From: Candidatus Aminicenantota bacterium
GTDB lineage: Bacteria > Acidobacteriota > Aminicenantia > JAMOAD01
DNA length: 51,505 nt
Assembly: GCA_027061995.1 (NCBI GenBank)
Contig: JAMOUT010000033.1
Coordinates: 1 to 51,505 of the forward strand
Reading direction: 5' to 3'
How positions within the stretch are numbered: the first letter of the stretch is position 1; each line of letters begins with the position of its first letter. Below, in pieces: positions 45,050 to 46,081 of the stretch. The position numbers and the translations under genes are program-made. The notes below the pieces were generated by a model, which had not been told where the DNA came from, did no database searches, and saw only the letters and a list, made by a program, of their open reading frames with translations.

Positions 45050-45215
45050 TTTTTTATTATAGCACAAGAAAAGATTCTCTTCCATTTGTCTTAATTAAAT
45101 CTCTTGCATTCTTAATAAATTTTAAAGAATGCATTTAAACAATTGAAAAAAAGATTCGGTTGGTTAAATTCATAAAAGCAGAAGTTGTCCGGCTATCACA
45201 ATCGGAATTCAAGGA

Positions 45216-45258: not shown

Positions 45259-45332
45259 GCGCCCGTAGCTCAACCGGACAGAGCGTCTGACTACGAATCA
45301 GCAGGTTGGAGGTTCGAATCCTCTCGGGCGTA
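45259..45332 (+). tRNA. tRNA-Arg (anticodon ACG)
   Basis: The acceptor GCGCCCG pairs with CGGGCGT (G1-U72 wobble), D-stem GCTC/GAGC, anticodon loop CTACGAA (anticodon ACG, read as ICG after deamination) and T-loop TTCGAAT. CCA is not encoded; the discriminator A is followed by ATAAAAAGG. Positions 27 and 43 (T, C) do not pair. It is the substrate of TadA, whose gene starts 19 nt downstream. Confidence 0.95.
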
Positions 45333-45351
45333 ATAAAAAGGAGAATGATTC

Positions 45352-45927
45352 GTGAATAGATTTATGAAAGAAGCATTGATTGAAGCGAAAAAAGCGGAAA
45401 TTGAAGGTGAAGTTCCCGTTGGAGCAATTGCGGTAAAGAACAATAGAATTATTGCAAGAGCACACAATCAGGTTATCTCTTTAAATGACCCCACCGCACA
45501 TGCGGAGCTTCTTCTCATAAAAAAAGCAGCGGAAAAAATCAATAATTACAGATTAAATGATATAGAGATATTCGTAACAAAAGAACCATGCCTCATGTGT
45601 GTAGGAGTTATGGTTAATGCAAGAATAAAAAAACTCTACTTCGGAGCATACGACCCGATAAGAGGCGGAATTGATGTTTATTTAAGATATTTTGAAAAAT
45701 TCAACCATCATTTTGAAATTCAGCCTGAATTGGAGAAAGAAGAATGTGAAATAATACTTAAAAATTTTTTCAAGAAGAGGAGAGGTACCGAAGTGGTCGT
45801 AACGGGGTCGACTCGAAATCGATTTTCCGGTGATGAGCCGGGACGGGGGTTCGAATCCCTCCCTCTCCGCCAGAAGGATAGTAAAAAAAAAATAAAGAAT
45901 AAATGGAGGGGTGTCCGAGTGGCTTAA
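45352..45927 (+). CDS. tadA: tRNA-specific adenosine deaminase TadA, frame running into two tRNA genes
   Basis: TadA deaminates A34 of tRNA-Arg(ACG) to inosine. Starts at GTG 45352 after AAGGAG. Zinc and catalytic residues are intact: H50 and E52 (PTAHAELLLI), C80 and C83 (KEPCLMCVGVM). The family normally ends about where this protein reaches FFKKRR (residue 144). Here no stop codon follows in any frame before the tRNA-Ser gene at 45779. The frame continues through all of tRNA-Ser(CGA) and stops at a TAA inside tRNA-Ser(GGA), adding about 48 residues that are translated tRNA. RNase P cutting at 45778/45779 would leave a nonstop tadA message ending after codon 142. Confidence 0.93.
   Translation: MNRFMKEALIEAKKAEIEGEVPVGAIAVKNNRIIARAHNQVISLNDPTAHAELLLIKKAAEKINNYRLNDIEIFVTKEPCLMCVGVMVNARIKKLYFGAYDPIRGGIDVYLRYFEKFNHHFEIQPELEKEECEIILKNFFKKRRGTEVVVTGSTRNRFSGDEPGRGFESLPLRQKDSKKKIKNKWRGVRVA
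45779..45872 (+). tRNA. tRNA-Ser (anticodon CGA), lying inside the tadA reading frame
   Basis: Class II tRNA with perfect 7-bp acceptor GGAGAGG/CCTCTCC, anticodon stem GTCGA/TCGAT with loop CTCGAAA (anticodon CGA, reading UCG), a long variable arm and T-loop TTCGAAT. Discriminator G and CCA are encoded. All 94 nt are also codons of the tadA frame. Confidence 0.95.
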
Positions 45928-45994
45928 GGAGCACGCTTGGAAAGCGTGTGTCCCGATTACGGGACCGTGGGTTCGAATCCCACCTCCTCCGCCA
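45905..45994 (+). tRNA. tRNA-Ser (anticodon GGA)
   Basis: Acceptor GGAGGGG pairs with CTCCTCC (one G-T), anticodon stem CACGC/GCGTG with loop TTGGAAA (anticodon GGA, reading UCC/UCU), long variable arm TGTCCCGATTACGGGACC, T-loop TTCGAAT, G73 and encoded CCA. The D-arm contains the TAA that ends the tadA frame. Confidence 0.95.
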
Positions 45995-46081
45995 TTTATC
46001 AACAATGAACCGTCAAAATAATAAACAAACCACCCCCTTTTTTTAATTTTATCAATTATCCGATTTTTTTATTATTAGTTG

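Follow-up and report, generated by a model that had tools for sequence, protein, structure and literature searches.

How is the synthesis of an essential enzyme ended when its gene lacks a stop codon and runs on into a tRNA gene? This question is raised by the tadA gene in the window analysed here, a stretch of 51,505 nucleotides from an uncultured Candidatus Aminicenantota bacterium (contig JAMOUT010000033.1), which belongs to a draft genome of 2.4 Mb in 104 contigs. TadA, the tRNA adenosine(34) deaminase, is an essential tRNA-editing enzyme whose standard substrate is tRNA-Arg(ACG).

Organization of the tadA locus

ORF calling placed tadA on the forward strand at 45352..45927, as 191 codons plus TAA with a GTG start at 45352, and direct reading of the sequence found a Shine-Dalgarno-like AAGGAG ahead of this start (45338..45343). 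On the same strand, ARAGORN identified tRNA-Arg(ACG) (45259..45332), which ends 19 nt upstream of tadA, tRNA-Ser(CGA), 94 nt long (45779..45872), and tRNA-Ser(GGA) (45905..45994), the last two with encoded CCA. The first-pass annotation had reported that the tadA frame has no stop ahead of tRNA-Ser(CGA) at 45779, reads through all 94 nt of that tRNA and ends in the D-arm of tRNA-Ser(GGA) after 191 residues. The ARAGORN and ORF coordinates agree with this description: tRNA-Ser(CGA) lies entirely within the tadA frame, the 32-nt linker between the two tRNA-Ser genes (45873..45904) is open in the tadA frame only, and the closing TAA (45925..45927) corresponds to nt 21-23 of tRNA-Ser(GGA). Direct reading also found no stop in any of the three frames from the T-run at 45765-45770 to 45779, as had been claimed, and a cut by RNase P at 45778/45779 would indeed leave 142 codons plus 1 nt with no stop.

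The four genes, tRNA-Arg(ACG), tadA, tRNA-Ser(CGA) and tRNA-Ser(GGA), most likely form a single transcription unit, since they share one strand and are tightly spaced, and the nearest large ORFs on either side are on the opposite strand. No intrinsic terminator was found in the tadA/tRNA region. A weak sigma-70-like promoter candidate, with 9 of 12 consensus matches, lies upstream of the cluster on the forward strand (45143..45170); the number of sigma-70-like sites in the tadA region was at chance level in this consensus scan, and little is known of promoters in this phylum. Each of the three tRNA genes is single-copy in the assembly, which has 43 tRNAs in all, and only weaker relatives of tRNA-Arg(ACG) occur elsewhere in the genome. 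A minus-strand ORF of 107 aa (45682-46005), which is antisense to both tRNA-Ser genes and has no Pfam match, is probably spurious.

As the locus reads, TadA and tRNA-Ser(CGA) have to come from overlapping RNA. The first-pass annotation had treated the two as competing outcomes of one transcript; TadA synthesis and tRNA processing need not be strictly exclusive, because translation can be completed before the tRNA has folded and been cut.

The tRNA-encoded C-terminus of TadA

The deaminase domain of TadA was delimited to residues 3-144 by Pfam, NCBIfam and PDB matches. Both PF14437 and PF00383 scored above their cut-offs, the NCBIfam TadA equivalog gave 141 bits, slightly below its cut-off of 150, and TadA structures in the PDB were matched with E values as low as 5e-33. 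The zinc motif of the HxE/PCxxC type is present as H50-A-E52 and P79-C-L-M-C83; this HAE/PCLMC motif and the extent of the domain are shared with other bacterial TadA proteins. The natural end of the protein was placed at about residue 144, where it had been put before, because the deaminase profiles stop at residues 144-146.

Codons 143-144 (AGG AGA, Arg-Arg, 45778..45783) lie over nt 1-5 of the acceptor stem of tRNA-Ser(CGA), whose acceptor strand GGAGAGG reads Arg-Arg-Gly in the tadA phase. Comparison with 133 other TadA proteins, from outside the overlapping genomes of the window's family (f1) and of a second family (f5), found Arg or Lys at the first of these positions in 127 and Arg at the second in 131. 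In an AlphaFold model of TadA the two Arg close a C-terminal helix (residues 129-144), and the C-terminal helix of TadA interacts with the anticodon stem-loop (PMC8216470). Read in this frame, the last conserved residues of TadA, including the near-invariant C-terminal Arg, are encoded by the acceptor stem of tRNA-Ser(CGA). With the basic pair supplied by the acceptor strand, tadA could dispense with an end and a stop codon of its own. The tRNA-encoded tail of 47 residues is predicted to be disordered, with pLDDT below 50 for residues 149-191 in the AlphaFold model. Unlike other bacterial TadA proteins, this one thus has no stop of its own, takes its Arg pair from a tRNA gene and carries a predicted-disordered tail.

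Conservation in the window's family

The window's family includes five genomes, and the locus was found in the window's genome and in the Aminicenantes assemblies G003 and G004, which are its closest relatives by TadA; it is absent from the assemblies of the other two (G001 and G002). The loci of G003 and G004 (L002/L169 and L003/L170) have the same gene order, junction and final TAA as the window, and tRNA-Arg(ACG) is placed likewise. The TadA proteins of these two separate assemblies are 73-75% identical to that of the window, with a range of 73-85% among the three genomes.

The linkers between the two tRNA-Ser genes are 32, 35 and 38 nt long in the three genomes, which is 2 modulo 3 in every case and in steps of 3 nt. 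In each linker the tadA frame is open and the other two frames are closed; a shuffled linker was open in 22-28% of draws. These whole-codon differences, together with openness solely in the tadA frame, favour selection on the frame, and they are suggestive and not decisive, as they come from three genomes, two of which belong to one genus. Identity of tRNA-Ser(CGA) at 94 of 94 nt among the three genomes was considered as a sign of extra constraint on the nested tRNA and was dropped, since tRNA-Ser(TGA) is equally conserved and the identity therefore adds no evidence. Across the phylum, 54 of 99 tRNA-Ser(CGA) genes are open in the tadA phase. What points to constraint is that the same junction, phase and closing stop are conserved; an open tRNA is in itself nothing unusual.

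The tadA/tRNA-Ser junction across the phylum

In 153 genomes from across the phylum that have a tadA match, the position of the tadA stop was scored relative to the first co-directional tRNA-Ser downstream. The stop precedes this tRNA in 76 genomes, falls inside it in 21 and is beyond it in five, and the remaining 51 have no such tRNA within 400 nt. In genomes where the stop comes first, 0-60 nt mostly separate it from the tRNA, and in family f35 the distance is 3-29 nt. The five genomes with a stop beyond the tRNA are the three of the window's family and two of family f59, from another class, whose tadA frame passes through the entire tRNA, in a phase other than the window's; in family f66 of that class, near f59, the tadA stop is 24 nt inside the tRNA, and the phase is likewise not that of the window.

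In f5, which is also a family of Aminicenantia, tadA runs into tRNA-Ser(CGA) at the same FF-x-x-RR position in 16 of 22 genomes, whose TadA proteins are as little as 46% identical to one another, and the stop falls within the anticodon-stem/variable region of the tRNA. The overlap is dispensable, as several f5 genomes have lost it or resolved it. In two of them (G012, L100, and G066, L115) an intact tRNA-Ser(CGA) is found 443 and 226 nt downstream and tadA keeps the tail RRGAGRK, a remnant of the tRNA 5' end, which suggests that DNA was inserted or duplicated once the overlap had formed; in two further f5 genomes the tRNA is on the opposite strand. Among adjacent pairs, a TadA tree requires no fewer than six changes between overlap and its absence, gains and losses together. 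A tree joining the f1 and f5 overlaps was not rejected (p-AU 0.396), and these overlaps may have one shared origin. The first-pass annotation had proposed looking for a conserved missing stop at this junction in related genomes: the missing stop is kept in the window's family, and other families of the class have a tadA stop ahead of the tRNA. Among 80 named loci inspected for cases in other phyla, a tadA frame that enters a tRNA was seen only in the two family members.

An upstream tRNA-Arg(ACG) accompanies tadA in 13 of the 26 genomes with an overlap versus 10 of the 76 without (Fisher p 0.0003), counts that come from related genomes and are not independent. In several families of Acidobacteriota tRNA-Arg(ACG) adjoins tadA, upstream and on the same strand, and in two Clostridia (L208, L238) it lies convergently, downstream of a gene for a TadA-related deaminase.

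A second gene that enters a tRNA: ispE, tRNA-Gln(TTG) and prs

As a control, sense ORFs of at least 60 aa that enter a tRNA were sought around every one of the 43 tRNA genes of the window's genome, in which each anticodon occurs once and CAT three times. Two recognisable genes were found among such ORFs, tadA and ispE. The product of the latter was identified as IspE by NCBIfam TIGR00154, above cut-off. Its frame (L312:449-1369 / L318; G000:C57:10648-11568) has no stop before tRNA-Gln(TTG), crosses this tRNA (L312:1273-1344) in frame and ends in TAATG, where its TAA and the prs start codon overlap. On the opposite strand, a histidine-kinase/response-regulator-like ORF (L291; G000:C75:114200-116800) ends 35 nt into tRNA-Thr(CGT), with the tail KPMGGLDPPTC.

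A survey of 54 ispE loci included 47 Aminicenantia genomes with tRNA-Gln(TTG) downstream, and in 45 of these 47 ispE enters the tRNA. The frame stops inside the tRNA in 21 of the 45, nearly always at U8-A9-G10, and crosses it in the other 24 (four genomes of f1, 16 of f5 and four of f9). For nine of the f5 crossings, the frame closes with ATGA at the start of prs. In one f9 genome (G097, L338) ispE, tRNA-Gln and prs form one open frame of 633 codons, counted from the first matched residue, which is a possible IspE-tRNA-Prs fusion frame.

The position of the ispE stop over the prs start suggests translational coupling. Since stop/start overlaps with prs are what would be expected from translation through the tRNA, frames that cross a tRNA in this class are likely to be translated. 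One genome thus has two genes, ispE and tadA, that continue in frame into or across the tRNA that follows, and the ispE case differs from tadA in that its stop is often over the start of the next gene and in that it is far wider in the class.

A model for TadA synthesis and its alternatives

The explanation that we put forward is that tRNA excision ends TadA synthesis from each transcript and holds the TadA level low; taken as a whole, we would give it an even chance. Because the frame runs to tRNA-Ser(GGA), TadA with a stop codon could come only from a precursor in which both tRNA-Ser are uncut. The first ribosomes, following behind the polymerase, would read tadA and then the emerging tRNA, add the tail of 47 residues and stop within the second tRNA. 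Once the tRNAs had folded, RNase P would cut at 45778/45779 and turn tadA into a non-stop piece, whose ribosomes would need rescue by tmRNA/SmpB; tmRNA and SmpB are present in all five genomes of the family. TadA might in this way be kept low and tied to the transcription of its substrate, tRNA-Arg(ACG), which is adjacent to the tadA frame and not nested in it. Direct feedback through the nested tRNA would not be expected, as tRNA-Ser(CGA) has C34 and is not a TadA substrate. It is plausible that the read-through arrangement regulates TadA.

The same layout could have arisen through a tolerated loss of the stop codon with no regulatory role, by a deletion between genes that had long been close neighbours: leading ribosomes would finish before the tRNA is processed, the tail would be harmless, and ordinary rescue would clear the remnants. 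The short gaps between tadA and tRNA-Ser elsewhere in the phylum mean that losing the tadA stop readily leads into the tRNA, more than half of the tRNA-Ser(CGA) genes are open in the required phase, the tail is predicted to be disordered, and several f5 genomes have done away with the overlap. Such a history accounts less well for the retention of the exact junction across f5 and f1 in spite of TadA divergence, for whole-codon indels in the linkers and for ispE, another gene in which the frame that crosses the tRNA frequently closes at the start of the gene behind it. We regard it as a serious contender that falls somewhat short of an even chance; for tadA alone, harmless stop loss is nearly as likely as regulation.

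Other explanations fit less well. Bacterial tRNA genes can carry their own promoters within clusters, and tRNA-Ser(CGA) might be made from a promoter within tadA while TadA came from longer, slowly processed transcripts. This is improbable in our view, as the scan found no sigma-70-like site within tadA on the forward strand, an argument that is weak where the promoters of the phylum are not well known. The heptamer T TTT TTC (45765..45771), which forms in-frame Phe-Phe codons on the forward strand with the tRNA 7 nt further on, recalls a site for -1 frameshifting with the folded tRNA as stimulator and a second C-terminus as product, and each of the three family genomes has it, always 7 nt from the tRNA (as T TTT TTC and T TTT TTT in G003 and G004). 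A heptamer of this kind is expected in an AT-rich gene, since it encodes the conserved Phe-Phe of TadA, and it is probably a by-product of these codons; the -1 frame likewise runs into the tRNA (QEEERYRSGRNGVDSKSIFR), lacks the Arg-Arg pair and meets no stop ahead of the tRNA, so that we consider frameshifting very improbable. An assembly or sequencing error that deleted a stop, conceivable in a draft of 104 contigs, is ruled out by the same junction in the two separately deposited assemblies of relatives, and the closure of no frame between the T-run and the tRNA argues against it as well.

Relation to known gene/tRNA overlaps and significance

The nearest counterpart of the proposed termination of TadA synthesis by tRNA excision is selB of Alphaproteobacteria, in which tRNA-Sec (selC) was predicted by bioinformatics to be nested (Mukai 2021, PMC8124441); partial selB/selC overlaps were described in Dyella/Luteibacter and in a Nitrospirae lineage, and a non-stop mRNA after tRNA processing was proposed for selB without experiment (PMC8124441). 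In both systems a whole sense tRNA lies in the 3' part of a translation-related ORF, and the protein extension is translated tRNA. Stops in mid-tRNA occur at nt 46-48 in selB relatives and at about nt 45-47 in part of f5, and remnants after separation of the tRNA are common to selB relatives and to tadA in f5. The tadA case differs in the protein, the tRNA (Ser-CGA), the phase of the frame and the phylum (Acidobacteriota in GTDB). The tadA frame ends inside a second tRNA, whereas that of selB ends at a downstream ORF, as the ispE frame does at prs. Unlike in selB, the nested tRNA is not the ligand of the protein, and the substrate tRNA-Arg(ACG) is just upstream. In the mitochondria of Armadillidium vulgare, as cited in PMC8124441, tRNA-Lys is integrated in cox1 (Doublet 2015); from that account a sense tRNA is again fully within a coding region, with tRNA and mRNA as alternative products, in a compact organelle genome there and in a 2.4 Mb bacterial genome here. 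In the literature searched, which leaves out most subscription journals, the selB prediction was the sole bacterial precedent, and no report of tadA or ispE overlapping a tRNA was found.

Two further, unrelated gene/tRNA pairs in one genome are thus added to the selB prediction: the ispE pair spans nearly the whole class, with a frame that often closes at the start codon of the following gene, and the tadA pair is met again in distinct lineages of the phylum. Where annotation pipelines disallow a coding sequence over a tRNA, or cut it back, essential genes may be shortened. The proposal that tRNA excision is a post-transcriptional off switch for the preceding gene is testable. Its extension to Aminicenantia, in which co-directional tRNA genes would be built-in translation off switches for tadA and ispE, is offered as a tentative idea that we hold to be rather doubtful. 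If it is true, a few proteins would be made from each transcript by pioneer translation before tRNA excision silences it, and enzyme dosage, and for ispE the translation of prs as well, would be coupled to tRNA maturation.
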